Source: Psilocybe azurescens
Taxonomy: Eukaryota > Basidiomycota > Agaricomycetes > Agaricales > Agrocybaceae
Reading direction: 5' to 3'
Length of the DNA stretch: 64,000 nucleotides
Assembly: GCA_023853785.1 (NCBI GenBank)
Contig: JAJIRX010000492.1
Span: 124,001-188,000, forward strand
The translations under genes were made by a program, and so were the position numbers. Below the pieces are notes generated by a model. It saw only the letters and a program-made list of their open reading frames with translations. It had not been told where the DNA came from and searched no databases. This document shows positions 35,615-61,261 of this stretch, piece by piece. The first letter of the stretch is position 1. Each line of letters starts with the position of its first letter.

Positions 35615-36974
35615 TTACGGAGTATTTATGATTAAGGAAGCCAGTGAGCTGCTGACACATAGGGCAGCCACAGCAAAAGACGATGCAATAAACTTCATTG
35701 TTCGGTAGTAGGGTTGGAGTACGAGTAGATCCTTGCTTGGACTGATTCTCTTTAGACACACGAAGGACTGTCTTTATAGCTCTCCCTTGAGTAAGTCATG
35801 TCGTTATCATCATGAGCCAGTCATCACGCACTAAGTTTAGAGACGGTCATTACAGACCTGGTGAGAATACAATAAAGGGTATATGTATATTCCCCAGAAC
35901 TATTTGTCGCTGAACCCGATATCGGATCCTAAATTAAAGTTGAAATATTGGCCCAGTGGCCTATAAATAACCGATTCAGCTTCTTCAGCGCTCATGAATG
36001 CTAGCGAGAAACAAGTACACCTCAACCTGGCTGGTTAATGATCCAGACCTGAGGGTTTACTCGCCAGTGCAGGCAACTGTAGTTGCCAGATATTTTTGGA
36101 AAACGGCATTGGCAATTCCATGGTGCAGTGGTACACCTTGAATAAAAACGACTTCGTTTTGGTGCAACATTCGCTGTTGGCAGTATTGAATTTTCGACCA
36201 AATAGTGACGAAACATTTCCACGTAAAGGCTTTTTGTGGGTGTGCGCCGGCGGTCTGTCCGTTTAATACGCACACGAGAATTATTGCGCAAAAGATTTAA
36301 CGATAAATAGCCTTCAGGTGACATATTCAAGCAGCCAGACAGCCTTCTTCAACCTGGTCGCCATCTCAGATACATCTTAATGCGCTTGTATCTCACCGGG
36401 AACACTTATGAAATTGAACCAATGACTCTCAATGATGACACATGAAAGCGGTCACCAGCCTCAGTTATAAACATAATGGTATTTCACAACACCACTACCG
36501 ATTCCTGATTTCCACAGTTCCTGATGAGTTTATAAAGCGTTGATGGCAGCACAGATTCGTCAAGGCTTAGACGCTTATACCTCGTAGGATGATCTATTGC
36601 ATGTGGGGCATAATGGTGGTATTTCATCTCAAGACTCACTCGATCTTGGTTTCTTAATTCTCTCAGTTCTTGATTATTTTGTCCGTCGCTGAATCATCTC
36701 TTCCTAAAATATTGCAATTTGGCTTCGAACCCTGCTATCATCAGGGCGATTGCCGGTCGTTCGAGTGCAGTTGCTCATCTCGTATTCTGAAGGCGTGAGG
36801 CTTTAATGACGCACAAAATTGATAACCACAGACCGTGTCAGACCGCAGAATTATCGAGTGCCCGGAGAGTAATTTAACTGAGACGTTTAAATAAACCACA
36901 ACCTGACAGAAAGTACATCGAAAGTGCATAGAATCCAATGGTATTATACGTACAGTAGAGAATTAGGTTAAAGC
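35615..36974. other. Gene-poor stretch
   Basis: A minus-strand frame of 102 codons (36330-36022) overlaps another of 72 codons. One of them contains HQNEVVFIQGVPLHHGIANA, which reads like an exon but matches nothing I know. A minus sequence at about 36721-36745 resembles a tRNA B box, but no cloverleaf forms around it. Nothing else is seen. Confidence 0.3.
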
Positions 36975-37490
36975 CTACTTGAGCATGTACACCCTATTTT
37001 CCGTGGCGACCCTTTCAAGCTTTCTGAACTTTCCTTGCAGTAGCGACAACACTTCTTCAGTTTTTTCCGACCTCGCATACCTCTCATTTTCGTGTTCATC
37101 GCCGATGTCTTCTAACATTCGTTGCTGAGTTACTACCTTGGAGGTTCTGATCTCACGAAGCTCAGAGAATCGGGTCTACCGCTTTGAGGAAAGCATCCAC
37201 ACCTTCGAGCAGTTCCTGTTCATTGAGCATGATATCAAATTTTGCTTTGGTGATCGCTAGAAACTGGGGAAAAGGTTATGTAATTCATGAATTTGAAGGT
37301 ACATCGGCAGGGTGATGCTGTGGAGGAGATAGGAAAGAGTGGCCAAGTAGTAAAGATCGGCATCTGTGCAGTCTGTGGATCAGTTGCTCATTAATGATTT
37401 GAAGGAGAACTTCATTTTGCAAGTCACATAAGTACATTTTGACGTTCCTTGCCTGGAGAGAGAAAACAGTAATTGTCGTTGAAGTCACTG
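36975..37490 (-). pseudogene. Coiled-coil protein fragment with a frame break
   Basis: The minus strand reads TDADLYYLATLSYLLHSITL..., then FLAITKAKFDIMLNEQELLE...AFLKAVDP. After a one- or two-base shift near 37170 it reads FSELREIRTSKVVTQQRMLE...ERYARSEKTEEVLSLLQGKF and LERVATENRVYMLK to the stop at 36975-36977. The C-terminal half has the heptad spacing and charge of a coiled coil. Its 5' side abuts the CpG-depleted repeat block that begins near 37500, so upstream exons may be missing or displaced. I do not recognise the family. Confidence 0.45.
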
Positions 37491-37731
37491 CGGTTCATAA
37501 TTGCAATTGGCTCATGAAAACCAGTCCACAAAACCATTATTTAGCTGGCCCAGCCCTGCAAATTCTGATTTTTGGCCTCTAAAGCCTAGCTTGAGCCCAG
37601 AAATGGAGAGGTGTGAATACACTGTTATTCATATTCAGATAAATTCAAATATTTTCCAATTAAGGAATGGACGTTTTGAACATTTGAACACAGGGACTTG
37701 GAGCCAGAAAACACTGAGTTTAAACTGGGCT

Positions 37732-37746
37732 TGAACCTTATACTAT
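37732..37746 (+). repeat. Left target-site duplication of the SINE
   Basis: TGAACCTTATACTAT, 15 bp, identical to 38995-39009. The pair brackets the element exactly: one side abuts the pentamer tail and the other abuts the tRNA-like head. Confidence 0.8.
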
Positions 37747-38994
37747 TCAATTCAATTCAATGTTATTTATTTCATAGGCTTTGCACATGACAGTAGTTTA
37801 TTGCCTATATAGTATGACTCAGTGTGACCCAGGTATTACTCTAAGTGACCATGTCTATCTACTTTTGTTGTTACATCCCGTGGTAATTGTCTAATTGTGG
37901 CTTACAAATCCTCATTGGATATTGGCAGGCTTTAGGAAAGTCAGCCCTGCTGTCAGGGTTTCTCTTATTTACTTCTATTTTCATCCCATGATTATCTTCT
38001 ATCTTCTATCTTATCTTTTATCTTTTATCATATCTTTTATCTTTGTCAGTATCTTGATCATTCCAGAAGTTTCCATCATCACTCCTTTTCATTACTCATC
38101 ATGATCCTTATTACTCATTATTACTTATTAATTGCTTTCTTTATTATTCATCATGGTTCTTCTTATTACTCATCATGGAATCTTACTTAATCAGTCATCT
38201 CTAGAGTAGTATAAGTACTGCATGTTTTGTAGGTAGATCCCCAGCTTCAATCTCTTAGGATTTCCACTATCATTGGTGTGAACCTTTAGATCATTGATTT
38301 CTCATAAGTCTATCCTCTGCTCTCTCCTCATCCTCTACTCTTACTCTCTTGCTTGTCTTTGTTGGTGGCCTTGTCACACTGATTTTAGTGTTGCCCTGAC
38401 ACCTGCCACCCCTGGAGTTGATCTATTTATATAGCACCTTTCATCATCCCACATAACACCCTGTCATGCAGGTAATCATTATCAGCAGCATGATCCACAG
38501 CAGCCAGTTGCTGTTTGATCCTGAGCAGTTTAATCCTCATGGTCTTGTCCTTTCAGGTTGCTCTAGCCATCTTTGATGTCGGGTTGTAAAACTTCCACCT
38601 TGTGGTCCAGTTGGTCATGCAAGTAGGGGACTGGATTAACAGCCTCAGCATATACCATGTCATGTGACCCTGTCCCTATTCTCCCAGCTCCCCACATGTG
38701 TCTTGGCAATACCTGTTTTTGCAGGCAAGGAAGGTAGAGTCACCACAATTTACAACTAATTATAGGCCAACATGGGTATGTCATATCCAGCTGCTGTGGC
38801 TCTATTTGGTCTGACCACACCTAAGTATACTGCCAGCATTCTTAAAGCCTTCCCAGCACCAGGCCTTCCTCAGTGTCACCCAGAGGCATTGAAAAGTCAC
38901 TTGGTGTCTAAAATGTTTTCCATGTAACCAGCCAGGATTGAACCACCAACCTAGGATTAAGTCTGTGATGGTGCCACCTGAGCCATCACAGCCC
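37747..38994 (-). mobile_element. Long tRNA-derived SINE with pentanucleotide tail
   Basis: On the minus strand the element starts right at the duplication with GGGCTGTGA, then an A box (TGGCTCAGGTGG, about position 10) and a B box (GGTTCAATCC, about position 51). This spacing matches RNA polymerase III internal promoters of tRNA genes. The B box would be GGTTCGATCC before CpG decay. The other end is a tandem (ATTGA)n tail. With 15-bp flanking duplications this is a target-primed retroposon. No ORF of note lies inside. The body of about 1.25 kb is long for a SINE; it includes TTATCTTTTATCTT-type low-complexity DNA at 37990-38180. Confidence 0.8.
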
Positions 38995-39009
38995 TGAACC
39001 TTATACTAT
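38995..39009 (+). repeat. Right target-site duplication of the SINE
   Basis: TGAACCTTATACTAT, identical to 37732-37746 and directly next to the tRNA-like head of the element. Confidence 0.8.
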
Positions 39010-39286
39010 AGTGAGACATTGAGTAATGAGCTTGAGTGCTTGAGTGCTGGGCTCTGTACCCCTCACCAAACATATCTCTGTACCACACAGCAATTCAGGC
39101 AACCCAGGCTTGAGTCATTCAAGTATGCCATAATAGTTTGTCCTTCATGTTTTGTACACTAATCTGGCACTAAAACCAATTCCATCTCCCTCCTCCAGTG
39201 TCCTCCTCAGCACCTTTGGTTGACTGCTCTGCCAACCTGATCAAGAAGCACATTGATTTCTATCTCAACTATACTCCCCATTAAAC

Positions 39287-41009
39287 ATGGACATGTGGCC
39301 TACTGGAGTTCCAATCACCCCCAGCACAGCCCCCTCCTCTCCTGGCTTTGGCAGTACCACTGCCACTGCATCCCATGCCCAGACCCACATCTCATACAAG
39401 GAAGCAAACTCATATTACACTGATCTCTGCTCCCAGCCTACACTCCTCTACAGAACAGGGCAGCTGTGGAACCCTCCTCAAGGTCCTGAGGCCCAGCAAC
39501 AAAAGAAGGAGATCATTGCAGTGTTTAGGGGGTAGATTGAGCAGCCATAGAATAAGGGGGATTTAGCATGGGAGGTTGTGAAATTCATGGAAGATAACAA
39601 GGTCAGTGAATAGGCATCCATCACTTCATGGAACTTGCTAACCAGGTGTTCTAGATCAACTTCAACACCATCAATGTTGTTTGCTTCAAATTGGTCTTAG
39701 ACAACCAGCATGACATGTACACCAGTCCAGTTACTATTTTTGGGTGTTATCCCCAGGTCTACCATGCCCACAGATACCCATAATGCAGCCAAGGGTATTC
39801 AGGATCTTCTCAAGCAGTATGCAATCACTGATGTCATCAGCATTGAGTTTGCCAAAATGTACTATAGATGCCTAGTCAGTCCTCTGCTCTTCAGGCCCAC
39901 CAAATATCTGGACCCACTGGCAGATGTTATTGGTCTGCTCACTACTGCCCTTGGGCTTCCCATTGCCACTGCAGCCAGACCCAACACCCAGAGTACAATG
40001 ACAGCATACCTGCCATGTACTTTTTGGGCCTACAGTACCCAACAAGGACTATGAACATCATAACAGTGCACCTCAGCTGAATGTACACCTTCTTGGGGAA
40101 CAGGCCTTCAACAATCTCCTTGGATCTATCCAGTCAAAAATAGGTGAACATAAGATCATGCTCAAGTTCTATGCTGATCAAATTGAGGACTTTATTGCAA
40201 TAGAGTGCAGTGACAATGCCAACAATGCTAGGAACACTAGCCAGGAACAATTTCAGAACCAGGCCTTGATGGATAGGCATATGGCAGGAATAAATGTGCT
40301 TGACTTGTTCCACAGACATATCCAGCATGAGTGGAGCAAGCCAAAGAACTGCATCCTTGGTCACATCTTACACTCCCCAGCCATCAGATATAACTTTGGC
40401 AAGCACCACTTCACTCAAGATTGGGGTGTGTTCAAGGTTGACTGAGCCAAGCTTGGCAACAGCTTCATAGGCAACAAGGTGTGTTTGTAATGATCTAATT
40501 ACAGTCTCAGACAAACCTAAATATCTGCCTACCCAGGTACAAAAATGGCACCCACAGAGTTCACCAAGAAATGCTTCATCTGCCCCAACACTAATTGGCA
40601 CTTCAAGTATCCCAAGGACAGTATGCTACAGCTTCACAGCATCATCACTGACAAGCTCATGTGCCACCCAGATATGAGAGATTGGGACAATGAACCCTGT
40701 CTGCTTGTTATCAAGAACAGAAACACCACTGGTCTTACCATAGGCCATGCCAACAGCATATTCTCAATTGTTTGTATGCACACCCTTGACAACACAGCTG
40801 TGGAAGGCACATCTATGGAGTGGGCAATCCTGAACTACAACAACCAGTCAGGGCCATTCTCTGAGCCTGGCAACTCAGGTGCAGTGATTGCTGATATCTG
40901 TGGCAACATCAGTGGCATATTGACTGGGGGTAACTGGCATTCCTCTCCCACCATCTCACATTCCTTAAAAGGAAATATGTACAATTTAAGGATACATGAT
41001 TACTTATGA
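39287..41009 (+). pseudogene. Decayed trypsin-like (PA-clan) protein of a mushroom multicopy family
   Basis: Fragments in several frames follow one family order: MDMWPTGVPITPSTAPSSPG, SYKEANSYYTD-like and LLYRTGQLWNPPQGPEA; AWEVVKFMEDNKVS; then ITDVISIEFAKMYYR, YLDPLADVIGLLTTALGLPI and ARPNTQSTM. Further on come ILGHILHSPAIRYNFGKHHF, DWGVFKVD, HPDMRDWDNEPCLLVIKN, GLTIGHANSIFSIV, MEWAILNYNNQSGPFSEPGN and SGAVIADICGNISGILTGG. G-N-S-G-A stands where chymotrypsin-like proteases have G-D-S-G-G, so the catalytic serine motif is recognisable. Many TAG/TGA stops and frame changes break it. Lack of any CpG shows that it decayed under methylation. Whether the family is a protease gene or a transposon passenger is not known to me. 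Confidence 0.65.
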
Positions 41010-41280
41010 TTGCTAACAACCAATGCTGGTTAGGTAGAGTGGTTACTGATGCAAGTTATTTGTTGTGTGCTTGATGGTTCAATTCTTATTGAGTGTGTTT
41101 TTTTAAAATTTAAAAAAATTATACTTAGGGCAATTTCCTAATTGCTATAAGTATTTTTAATACTGCTTTTAGCTATATTAGACATTGTTAGATAGTTGGG
41201 CTAGGAGATTAGAGTTAAGTAGTTAGGAGGTTAGAGCTAGGGCTTAGATATCCATTTCTCTCAATGCAGTAGCACATTCT

Positions 41281-42548
41281 CGGTTCAGTTAGAAGGTTAG
41301 CATGGCTTGTTACATTAGGTGGTTAGTGTATATTTTTTTGAATCTTTTTATTATTGTGCAACAAGCAGACATAGTTCTAAGATGTAGATGTACACCACTC
41401 TGTAGCATTGTATCTACTAGTGCCCAAAACATAGAGAGAAATGAACTTGTATATCTAGGGGTCTATTTATAAGATATAGAGAGATGTAAAGTAAGGCTCG
41501 TTATGAGCCAGAGAGTTAGTGTTGTTAAGAATCTAGACCTAGATAATAGACAATAGAACTACAAGTTTATTAGCTCTATGATAAATGGTACATATGAAAA
41601 GAATATGCATACCTCAGTCAACAGTACATCAGCAAAAGCGACATAAGAATAGCTTGTAATCCATTGGTCATAGAAGGCGTACATGGCCCACATTGTGTAA
41701 ATAAATTCTAGCTACCATGAATTGACGAGGCATTGCAATAGATTCACTCAATAAAAATACAATGTTGTCCAATTATTGCTTAGCATACAATCATTGCTCG
41801 CTATCCATTGCAGTCCAATATCACAGCATTCTTGTATAACCTTGGAAGGTAGTTCGAATTTGTCAAGTTTTACATTAAAGATAGCCAATGCAAGGCTTAG
41901 TCCATCTTCATAATCCCTATGCATTCCAATGGAAAGTAGGTTAGATCCTTATTCAAATGCTCATGAAACTCCGAATTCAGCTTACTTATCGATCACTCAC
42001 AGAATAGTCATATGGTCATACTGTCATCGTATTCAGTAGCAGTTATTACACACAGACGTCATTATATAAAATCATAAGCAAGGGACAATAAAAAGAAAGA
42101 ACAGAACAACACCAAAGGGTGAGTGACACATCCAAGAAGCGTCCAAAAATAAAACAAGTTAGTAAGTGGTCAGTTAGTTTGGCGATGGTATGGTGATTGG
42201 GATAGCGATTCACGATGATTGTGATGCGACTCGCTAAATACAAGGCTTGTGCTCCGGCCCCGGATAGGAGATGACTGTGAAAATTTGTTACCCGACTTGA
42301 CCAAGAATAGGTGGTTGATCGGTTTTCATCCTCATCTGAGGAGAGCACAATCGTCGACTGGTGCTTGGCGTCCTGGCTTCTGTTGAGGTGCAGTTAGCTT
42401 GGATGTTCTTGCAGGAGACGAGGAGCCCCACAAAGTCTCAGAAGACGGTTGGGGGACGGGTCGTTGGGCATGTATATGTCATCATCAGAGGAGGGTTCAA
42501 CTTGGTTCTGGTGACTAACTGCTGGCGCAGTGTGCTGGGTAGAAAGAA
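41281..42548. other. AT-rich spacer, no gene recognised
   Basis: 41010-41500 has repeated TTAG-type purine-rich words (ttaggaggttagagctaggg). The minus frame 42348-42046 begins MLSSDEDENRSTTYSWSSR, whose acidic S-D-E-D-E stretch could be the eroded tail of the neighbouring DUF6698 gene. Confidence 0.35.
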
Positions 42549-57848: not shown

Positions 57849-59123
57849 ATGTCCGGAAAACTAGGGCCGCACCCAAGAAACAAGCTCTCTGTCTTTGACA
57901 GGGTAAAGATTTCTGTCGTGTTGCTCTCGATGCGTGAGTCTCCCATTCATAAACGTCGAATCAGACTTCGGAGTGTTGAATCCTTTTCAAAAGCCGTCGT
58001 TCTCTCATGGGCACTCCTCCAGTCTATCTGGTCCAAATACGAGAACCACAAAACATGGAAAAGAGTGCTCCTCGATCGCGCGTCAGTATACATGATGTCC
58101 CATTTGAACCGGAGGCAAGCGCGTTCAATAACTGGAACCACTGCCAGCGTCTATGGTGACTTTATGAAAGCACGAGGACTGCCTCAGGTGGTTGAAGAAC
58201 TGGGCGAAGACGCAAGACTTTTCTGGTTTGGACCGAGGGAAGCTGATCGCGTCCTTCTCTACTTCCATGGTATGTGGGGAGGCCTTGCTTCTATCACAAA
58301 TGTGGATTAACAGCCCCTTTAGGCGGAGCTTTCCTATATCCAGCTCTCTCCTCAACACCGTACCTCTGGAACCATGCTCAAGACATAATCGCAAAGAGAG
58401 GGAAGGCATTTGACATCGCGATGTTAAACTATAGTGAGCAATACACCGATGGCTTACAAAAGTCCGCATAGATTAACTCGTGTGCTCGATTCTCAGCTTT
58501 GGTACCTGATGCAGTATTCCCTACCCAGCTTACACAAGCTGTGCTCGCCATCCAACACCTCCTGGACACCGGCACAAGACCCGAGAACATCCAACTGACA
58601 GGGGACTCTGCCGGCGGCACACTCATCCACCAAGTTCTCTCCCACATTCTGCACCCTCTCCCGGGCGTCCCAGAGCTCTCCTTACCCGGTCCACTCGGTG
58701 GAGCATACATGTTGTCCCCTTGGACGTGCCTGACAGATGGAAAAGCTATGCGAAGTAATCAAGGACGAGGGGACCTCATAAGCGCGCCAATACTTGCGTA
58801 CTGGGGATCTAAAGTCCTGGAGGACGTCTCCCCGGAAGGCATGCCATACCTCAACGCACTCTTGGCCCCCAAAAATTGGCTTGAAGGCGTAGACAAAATC
58901 ATCAAACGCATCCTCATCAGCGCTGGAGAGTATGAGATTCTCCGCGATGCGATCATCGAGTATGCGAAAGTGGTTGAGAAGCATCATAAGGATGTGACAT
59001 TTTTCTTGGAGGAAGGTGGGATTCATGATCAGCCGTTCTTGGCTTTTTTTAACGGGGGACGAGGATTTGGGGAAGTTGACGTCGTTCATTGTGGACTGGT
59101 TAGATAGAGGCTTTTCATCATAA
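57849..59123 (+). CDS. Alpha/beta-hydrolase fold-3 esterase/lipase-like protein, copy 1
   Basis: Four exons. ATG 57849 MSGKLGPHPRNKLSVFDRVK; after an intron VVLSWALLQSIWSKYENHKT...ASVYGDFMKARGLP and VLLYFHG|GAF (oxyanion H-G-G); IAKRGKAFDIAMLNYS; ALVPDAVFPTQLTQAVLAIQ with the nucleophile elbow G-D-S-A-G-G (TGDSAGGTLIHQVL); YWGSKVLEDVSPEG; ILISAGEYEILRDAIIEYAK and EGGIHDQPFL, supplying Asp/Glu and His of the triad. The open frame stops at 59107 as ...GFGEVDVVHCGLVR. The expected tail DEDLGKLTSFIVDWLDRGFS, matching copy 2, lies one frame over and ends at 59123. One T too many in the T7 run at 59044-59050 explains it. It is a probable esterase of unknown substrate. Residues before the catalytic domain form a hydrophobic N-terminal anchor. 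Confidence 0.85.
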
Positions 59124-60004
59124 ACATACATCATGCTGGTAGGTCAGTGTGAGGATCTACTATCCGTTTACATGTAGTCTATTCGTAAGTCTGCATTCCT
59201 ATTGGACGAGCCTTTAAAATACGTCTGGAACAAGTAACAAGTAGTCATACCGTTTTTATTGGAATCACGGACATGTTAGACTGAGTATGACCACACGAAA
59301 TGGTTGGACTCTGTTAATTTCTAGTACTTAATACATAGTAATTGTATAGATAACGGGATTGTGGACATAGTAACATATTTAATAATATAAAGACACGCCG
59401 AAATGACAGACCATAGATGTATACAGTCCACACCAAAACTTAGCACTGAAGTTGTTGTGTATAATTTTGAGTAAATTCTGCGGAGAGCCCTAATAAAGAC
59501 ACTGGCGTACGACCAGCTTGCAGTCAATCTTCTCAGTGGGTGTAGTACACTTCAGCGGTAAACTCCCCGATAAGAGGAGGCGAGAGCTAGCTACACTACT
59601 CAATATAAACTGCCAAAATCATCCGCTATATTCTTAACAGGTCGTGGGAGCAATTCCGGAAGCATATGTAAGACCCGGAGGGTATTATGACCTGGGCGGG
59701 TGAAACGGCAACGATACGAACATGACACGGAGGCAAGGTCCACGAAGCTTGAACACTGCTATATAGAAGCTTTCTGGCTCCGACCTCTATTGCCTTTGTC
59801 GCACTAAGTTTCGAATGGTAGATCGACGCTATGTGGCATGAGTCAAGTGATTCTTCAACGGTGACGGGCCTGTGCGATTCGTCCGGGATCACCGCAGTGC
59901 AGTGACAGCACCTGTGCGCTCGGAAGCCAGACGAGTTCAGAAGGTACGCCATCGACACCTCATATCCTCATTATTCACATTACCTCACAAGTACGGCTTA
60001 ACAA
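59124..60004. other. Spacer between the duplicated hydrolase genes
   Basis: No gene. The last about 130 bp (from about 59880) repeat the words found before copy 1, such as GGGATCA-C-CGC, GCACCTGTGCGCTCGGA and AAGGTACG, so the upstream region was duplicated with the gene. Confidence 0.5.
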
Positions 60005-61261
60005 ATGAAGGCAGAACCACACCCAAGAAACAAGCTTACCTTCTTCGACAGAGTCAACATTCTCCTCGTCTTCATCCCAATCCGTATGTTGGCGATTTAT
60101 TTCTGAGGACAATTAAAGTGCTAATCCCTTTTTAAAAGCAATCGTTCTCTCATGGGCACTTATCCAGTCTTTCTGGTCAAAGAAAGACAGACACAAAAGC
60201 TGGAAAAGAGTGCTAGTTGACAATGTATCATTATACATGATGTCTAATCTGAGCCGGAGGCAAGGGCGAGGATTAAATGGTCGGACCACAGCGAGCGTAT
60301 ATGGTGACTTCATGAAGACACAGGGACTACCTGAGGTGGACGAGGACCTTGGCGAAGACGCGAGGCTTTTCTGGCTTGGACCGAGGAAGGCCTACAACGT
60401 CATCTTATACCTCCATGGTACATCAAATGAACTTTTAACTAAGCTGTAAATTGACAAAATTGGTTTAGGTGGCGCTTTTCTGTATCCGGCTCTTGCTTCC
60501 GCACCCTTCTTTTGGCACCACGCACAAATTACTTTGGGAAAGAGAGGGAAGGCCATCGATGTCGCAATGCTGAACTACAGTGAGCTCATTAATCCAAGCC
60601 TTGAAAACCACACAATGTCATATTTAATCACCAAGCTCTCGTCCCCGAAGCGATGTTCCCTACACAGCTAAAGCAGGCCGTGCTTGCCGTGCTACATCTA
60701 ATCGATACCGGGGTGAAACCAGAGAACATCCAATTAGCCGGCGACTCCGCTGGCGGCGCTCTAGTCCACCAAGTTCTATCTCACGTCCTCCACCCTGTGA
60801 AGGGAGTTCCGACTTTGACTTTAGCGAACCCACTTGGTGGTGCATTTATGATGTCTCCTTGGGTCTGCTTGACAGACAGTGATAGTATCCGCAGCAATCA
60901 AGGCAAAGGTGACCTGATTAACATAGCAACATCCATCTACTGGGGTTCCAAGGTTCTCAAGGACGCTCCGGAGGCAGGATTGCGATATCTCAATGCCGTC
61001 ACTATCCCGGAAGATTGGTTCAAAGGCTTAGAAAATATCGTTAAACGCATCCTCATTAGTGCTGGGGATGCAGAGGTTATCCGAGATGCCATTATCAAGT
61101 ACACAAAGGAAGTTGAAAAGCATCACAAAGGATTGTACTTTTTCTTGGAGGAACGTGGAGTCCATTGTGAACCACTCTTGGTCTTTTTAACCAAGGACAA
61201 AGATCTGGGGAAATTGACTCCTTTCGTTGTGGACTGGTTAGACCAAGGATTCACATTATAA
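60005..61261 (+). CDS. Alpha/beta-hydrolase fold-3 esterase/lipase-like protein, copy 2
   Basis: The exon plan is the same as copy 1. ATG 60005 MKAEPHPRNKLTFFDRVNIL; IVLSWALIQSFWSKKDRHKS...ASVYGDFMKTQGLP; VILYLHG|GAFLYPALAS; GKRGKAIDVAMLNYS; ALVPEAMFPTQLKQAVLAVL; AGDSAGGALVHQVLSHVLHP (G-D-S-A-G nucleophile); LGGAFMMSPWVCLTD; ILISAGDAEVIRDAIIKYTK; ERGVHCEPLLVFL; and an intact tail DLGKLTPFVVDWLDQGFTL to the stop at 61261. No lesion. It is clearly a tandem duplicate of 57849-59123, same strand. Likely a membrane-anchored esterase; substrate unknown. Confidence 0.9.

Follow-up and report, generated by a model that had tools for sequence, protein, structure and literature searches.

A SINE-like element of about 0.8 kb carrying a nested, putative Ty3/Gypsy solo LTR in a CpG-poor region of the Psilocybe azurescens genome

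We analyzed a window of 64,000 nucleotides from the mushroom Psilocybe azurescens (C429:124001-188000) and searched the assembly to which it belongs (70.4 Mb; 937 contigs). The protein product of one gene in the window has 94% identity to a Psilocybe cyanescens protein over 96% of the query, with Psilocybe cubensis as the next named hit (82%). The minus strand of this window carries a SINE-like element delimited by an exact 15-mer, which, as had been predicted, lies at 37732-37746 and 38995-39009 and is otherwise absent from both strands of the window. Read on the minus strand, the 1248 bp between these sites (37747-38994; the window copy, or C429 copy) begin with a tRNA-like head and end at 37747 with three units of the ATTGA repeat that had been described as the tail. 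None of the 36 listed open reading frames (ORFs) of at least 120 aa overlaps this stretch. Two further copies, on contigs C465 and C699, form subfamily A together with the window copy. The locus contains the following features:

38995..39009, minus strand: target-site duplication at the 5' (head) end of the SINE, ATAGTATAAGGTTCA on the minus strand (exact 15-mer)
38402..38994, minus strand: SINE head and body, 593 bp, 5' of the nested LTR (90% identity to C465 and C699)
38974..38985, minus strand: pol III A-box-like motif TGGCTCAGGTGG (consensus pair scan)
38935..38944, minus strand: pol III B box GGTTCAATCC (consensus pair scan)
38555..38572, minus strand: degraded short body module (AGACRGCTARAGCYRACCC), carrying an indel and giving no pattern match (alignment read by eye)
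38402..38406, minus strand: LTR target duplication GCAGG, copy 1, 5 bp (sequence at the LTR edge)
37951..38401, plus strand: putative nested solo LTR, 451 bp, TGTCAG...CTGACA, CpG-free and antisense to the SINE (homologs elsewhere; missing at C465 and C699)
37946..37950, minus strand: LTR target duplication GCAGG, copy 2, 5 bp (sequence at the LTR edge)
37747..37945, minus strand: SINE 3' part, 199 bp (homologs at the other A copies)
37747..37761, minus strand: (ATTGA)3 tail (sequence)
37732..37746, minus strand: target-site duplication at the 3' (tail) end of the SINE (second site of the exact 15-mer)
37673..41280, no strand: CpG desert, 2 CpGs in 3.6 kb (CpG count)

The segment at 40930-41500 is the start of another repeat, with at least 13 near-full-length matches (~540 to 570 bp; 79 to 82% identity) among 40 scored candidates, and an ORF without a Pfam match (40545-41009) crosses its edge. 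On the other side, the left flank (36580-37463) has as its only other matches partial ones of 69 to 80% identity at C429:212201-214499, on the other strand and ~50 kb away. No allelic empty site of the window was seen, since nothing else in the assembly is nearly identical to the left flank.

The bracketed stretch is composite. Whereas the original prediction took it for a full-length body of 1.25 kb, its 1248 bp resolve into a 792-bp SINE, a 451-bp segment, and a 5-bp duplication. With the whole stretch as the query (40 of 115 first-look candidates scored), query positions ~609 to 1018-1062 matched at least 37 other places over ~400 bp or more; in at least seven contigs (C431, C348, C807, C644, C844, C625, and C626), the copies are paired, with starts 6.37 to 6.50 kb apart. 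The segment starts with TGTCAG, ends with CTGACA, and has GCAGG on either side. Nine frame pieces beside its copies included three matching Retrotrans_gag and three matching SH3_Tf2-1 and Chromo, and these gag/chromodomain frames lie on the strand opposite to the SINE. Given the TG...CA ends, the 5-bp duplication, the ~6.4-kb pairs, and the gag/chromodomain neighbors, 37951-38401 is, judging from its sequence, the solo LTR of a Ty3/Gypsy chromodomain retrotransposon on the window plus strand. It has in common with Ty3/Gypsy chromoviruses the gag, SH3_Tf2-1, and chromodomain sequences beside its relatives, the 5-bp duplications, and the ~6.4-kb LTR spacing but differs in being nearly CpG-free in the copies examined.

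After removal of the LTR, the head part retrieved five loci in the assembly (five of five candidates scored), and the tail part (231 bp) retrieved only three (three of three scored). Copies of subfamily A with both ends thus number three in 70.4 Mb (C429, C465, and C699). Both C465 and C699 contain the head and the tail and read straight through the LTR site, representing unoccupied homologous sites; the tail part of C699 carries a deletion. The lengths between duplications are 798 bp (C465), 735 bp (C699), and 1248 bp (window copy), and each copy is bounded by an exact duplication of its own (i.e., ATAGTATAAGGTTCA, 15 bp, at the window copy; AATATCACAAT, 11 bp, at C465; and AGAGTGTTGGGTC, 13 bp, at C699). 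The genome search that had been proposed therefore yielded copies with coinciding ends and independent duplications, although the expected "many copies" came down to three of subfamily A and two of a sister subfamily B (see below) with both ends in 70.4 Mb. For a SINE, this is a very small number of copies, which counts against the SINE reading.

Taken alone, a 15-bp repeat within 3 kb would not stand out. Shuffled windows (n = 40) contained a mean of 0.4 and a maximum of 4 such 15-mers, and the real window contains 13, of which 12 fall inside a duplicated region at ~57870-61242. The copies of this region (57870-61261) are ~2.1 kb apart, and an ORF in the first of them (58499-59107) matches Abhydrolase_3 and Say1_Mug180. 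What gives the 15-bp duplication at the SINE its significance is that the termini of two other copies fall at identical element positions, each copy having a duplication of its own, in agreement with the element ends and target-primed reverse transcription (TPRT)-type duplications that had been proposed. Among random junction pairs 800 bp apart, a duplication of at least 11 bp occurred in 0 of 4000.

The pol III box consensus, chosen after the finding had been seen, was TRGYNNARNNG followed 25 to 55 nt later by GGTTCRANYC. Its sole match in the window is on the minus strand (T at 38985; B box at 38944-38935), versus 0.045 matches expected per shuffled window (200 shuffles), and the A and B box starts are 41 nt apart, a tRNA-like spacing near the 5' end that bears out the claim of correctly spaced boxes. 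The RF00005 tRNA covariance model did not match the head of the window copy (E values of up to 10) or six other loci, four of which have family heads (E values of up to 5), and ARAGORN with default settings reported no tRNA in the window. Relaxed ARAGORN settings produced different cloverleaves for the heads of C465, C699, and C504 (subfamily B) and none for the window copy. Heads were also aligned with tRNAs from this assembly, namely 31 of the 62 loci listed (63 scored out of 3033 candidates). The C465 head scored 103, whereas none of 300 mononucleotide shuffles scored above 86 and none of 594 window tiles above 94. The scores of C699 (96), C504 (78), and C569 (92; subfamily B) were not above the best of 300 shuffles (103, 99, and 115, respectively); relative to the 594 tiles, C699 exceeded all, and C569, the window copy (87), and C504 were equaled or beaten by 1, 4, and 13 tiles, respectively. 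What had been called a tRNA-headed SINE is right as a tRNA-like-headed one.

The best tRNA partners of the C465 head were a repeated ATA tRNA-like sequence (103) and Ile-AAT (102), scores that, among the 31 loci compared, are too close for a parent tRNA to be named. At least 10 near-identical 72-bp tRNA-like sequences are called tRNA(ATA) by ARAGORN. Two of these copies lie 256 bp apart at C480:211450-211930, each in a ~140-bp TG...CA repeat (read by eye; the first repeat is partial at its start), and the sequence between the repeats includes stretches resembling a primer site and a polypurine tract (also by eye); a further region with such a sequence is C569:607180-607480. The C480 structure resembles a TRIM whose LTR contains a tRNA, the arrangement described for Helenus, which is reported in PMC10886601 from three Agaricomycetes.

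The CpG loss inside the element, which had been described as complete, is nearly so; two CpGs stay (37879 and 38580), and the LTR part was probably CpG-free beforehand. CpG totals are 27 in C465, 27 in C699, 2 in C429, 1 in C504, and 1 in C569 (without its insert). The 15 CpGs common to C465 and C699 correspond at C429 to eight TG, six CA, and one AG; the CpG decay in the window SINE is real, with 14 of the 15 shared CpGs now being TG or CA. Non-CpG divergence is 5.5% and 5.8% between C429 and the other two copies versus 2.0% between C465 and C699, and C429 may therefore also be an older or more distant copy. Decay thus falls mainly on CpG, as the predicted CpG-type mutation implies, and with a non-CpG divergence of only 5.5 to 5.8%, the persistence of 15 identical duplication bases beside the CpG loss is unsurprising.

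The LTR is uninformative about decay, its copies being nearly free of CpG: among 31 aligned pieces from 27 loci, which are the best matches to a CpG-free query and hence a biased sample, 28 have no CpG and 3 have one. This scarcity of CpG in the LTR might reflect adaptation to CpG mutation or decay long ago. The target site of the LTR reads GCGGG at C465 and C699, and both duplication copies at C429 read GCAGG. Since both of these copies are without the CpG of their relatives, it was probably lost before the arrival of the LTR, or else lost twice. The surrounding desert starts ~60 bp outside the tail-side duplication (CpGs resume at 37672) and extends for 2.3 kb beyond the head-side duplication. 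The ~1.9 kb separating the SINE from the next repeat (39010-40929) contain 0 CpGs versus 102 expected, with TpG+CpA at 1.60 of expectation; a second copy of this segment was not reported among 40 of 58 candidates scored, making its single-copy status provisional. CpG observed/expected ratios of the two flanks within 1 kb (some flanks being shorter) are 0.42 and 0.53 at C465, 0.80 and 0.20 at C699, 0.39 and 0.00 at C504, and 0.55 and 0.11 at C569. Given these mixed values, the CpG-rich copies are not simply in CpG-rich surroundings.

Subfamily B comprises two copies with both ends (C569 and C504). The first ~125 bp are common to A and B (76% identity for C569 and 74% for C504), the bodies differ, and the B tail consists of TAGAAATAAAACTAGATC (TAGAAATAAAAGTAGATC in C504) followed by poly(A). 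The C504 copy is 865 bp long with a 16-bp duplication; C569 is 2071 bp long, or ~855 bp without a ~1.2-kb insert, with a 15-bp duplication. The insert (piece positions about 983-2192) has ends that look, by eye, like TGATGA...TCATCA and a 4-bp CCGA/CTGA flank. The B tail without the head was found at C720, C208, and C357 (nine of nine candidates scored). C720 and C208 are tail-only loci with near-identical flanks and 13- and 15-bp duplications, as TPRT with 5' truncation predicts; at C357, no clear duplication was seen. These three loci were rejected as LINE 3' ends after inspection by eye of ORFs of at least 80 aa, C720 and C208 looking like a truncated copy. For the A tail, the partner LINE with the same 3' end that had been anticipated was not found with the 231-bp tail query or with the last 23 bp, which occur (with up to three mismatches) at three loci only in the genome. 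Four ATTGA units occur once in the genome, where a brief inspection covered the ~300 bp before them. PF14529, an endonuclease family often present in LINEs, has 71 matches in the assembly.

C465 carries one intact short body module (AGACRGCTARAGCYRACCC). With at most one mismatch allowed, C699 has one module, C504 has three, and C569 has two, the insert of C569 occupying the place of a third; the module of the window copy is degraded. Stricter scoring of A/B alignments (300 shuffles) supported the head, and the module scored 84 and 89, the shuffle maxima being 88 and 89 (95% points, 69 and 67). The module is thus perhaps common to A and B, its statistical support being weak and borderline. A loose alignment of the A and B bodies scored 322, barely above the maximum of 310 in 200 shuffles, and a first blastn comparison of A and B gave no rows, perhaps owing to gap settings. 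Genome-wide, the module had 20 matches versus 10 for a reversed control; 7 lie in known copies, 9 represent one identical 19-mer of an unrelated repeat and were rejected as family members, and 4 remain. Head-pattern hits at C480 and C874 (three mismatches each) were also discarded, being without further resemblance in the 320 bp read. With a head of ~125 bp in common (the tRNA-like portion and ~50 bp further on), perhaps also the module, and with different tails, A and B could constitute an unnamed Agaricales SINE superfamily with its own conserved 5' domain and a switch of LINE partner (ATTGA versus poly(A)), a proposal that we regard as tentative and less likely than not. The shared head with different tails could help to locate further copies in related species and to test whether LINE partners were switched.

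The account that we favor, with a probability of about 0.87 for the whole, is that of a tRNA-related SINE of ~0.8 kb inserted by TPRT, later interrupted by a Ty3/Gypsy solo LTR and affected by CpG-directed decay. Its anatomy suggests that the SINE RNA would have been produced by RNA polymerase III from the internal A and B boxes and reverse transcribed in trans by a LINE via the SINE 3' tail. Insertion at C429 by TPRT would have generated the 15-bp duplication. A Ty3/Gypsy chromovirus-type retrotransposon would later have inserted antisense in the SINE body, and LTR-LTR recombination may then have left the solo LTR with its 5-bp duplication. CpG-directed C-to-T mutation, possibly by deamination of methylated CpG or by CpG-type RIP, would have erased nearly all of the SINE CpGs, the 2.3 kb beside the SINE head being equally CpG-free. 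The locus illustrates how an element can be made to look oversized by nesting and CpG decay, and it also orders the events.

The 15-bp duplications bracket all 1248 bp, as they would if the middle 450 bp were an original part of a single genuine 1.25-kb SINE family. Such a family has next to no chance of being real: the absence of the middle 451 bp from both other A copies (C465 and C699) refutes it, and elsewhere this part occurs alone or in ~6.4-kb pairs, with LTR ends, 5-bp duplications, and gag/chromodomain neighbors. It is also improbable, if to a lesser degree, that the copies are not a SINE and instead descend from a structured noncoding RNA gene with a few retrocopies (i.e., a processed noncoding RNA pseudogene family). 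The small number of copies with both ends (three A and two B) and the failure of Rfam models to see a tRNA in the head would suit this origin, but two subfamilies with a common head and different tails follow a modular SINE pattern, the pol III boxes have tRNA-like spacing, and five of five copies have their own duplication, so that none looks like an original gene. For the CpG desert only, RIP-type mutation of repeats could replace methylation-dependent deamination and would otherwise be compatible with the nested-SINE account. The affected repeats and the excess of TpG+CpA accord with RIP; we nevertheless consider it rather unlikely, given that C465 and C699 keep 27 CpGs each and that no second copy of the ~1.9 kb with 0 of 102 expected CpGs turned up in the 40 of 58 candidates that were scored.

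The host element is thus SINE-like and 792 bp (~0.8 kb) long, and both the SINE and the LTR are of kinds already known. SINE lengths are given as 100 to 700 bp in PMC10886601; the fungal SINEs in PMC5063351 include MgSINE (472 bp), mgsr1 (800 bp), Egr1 (700 bp), and EGH24 (900 bp), with ~40 to 160 copies for mgsr1, Egr1, MgSINE, and Foxy. The lengths observed here (735 to 865 bp; ~855 bp for C569 without its insert) are above the former range and within the fungal sizes of PMC5063351, and the unusual length originally claimed disappears on correction, ~0.8 kb being not unusual for fungi next to mgsr1 and EGH24. The present element shares with the long ascomycete SINEs (MgSINE, mgsr1, Egr1, EGH24, and Foxy), to which it is likened by description, the fungal SINE class; it differs in its mushroom host, its 3+2 copies, and the ATTGA tail of subfamily A. 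The AfuSINE families of Aspergillus fumigatus, as described in PMC5063351, likewise have a very low copy number and tRNA-related heads without a cloverleaf fold; a portion of their sequence is related to the LINEs I-4_AO and I-1_AF, whereas no LINE link was found here. Because PMC5063351 includes 900-bp SINEs and noncloverleaf AfuSINEs, neither the corrected length nor the poor cloverleaf is distinctive. Among the open-licence PMC papers listed, none dealt specifically with an agaricomycete SINE, and SINEs of mushroom-forming fungi look little described. By the descriptions in PMC5063351, the mushroom element is a new low-copy member of the fungal SINEs, of the 800- to 900-bp kind already in print.
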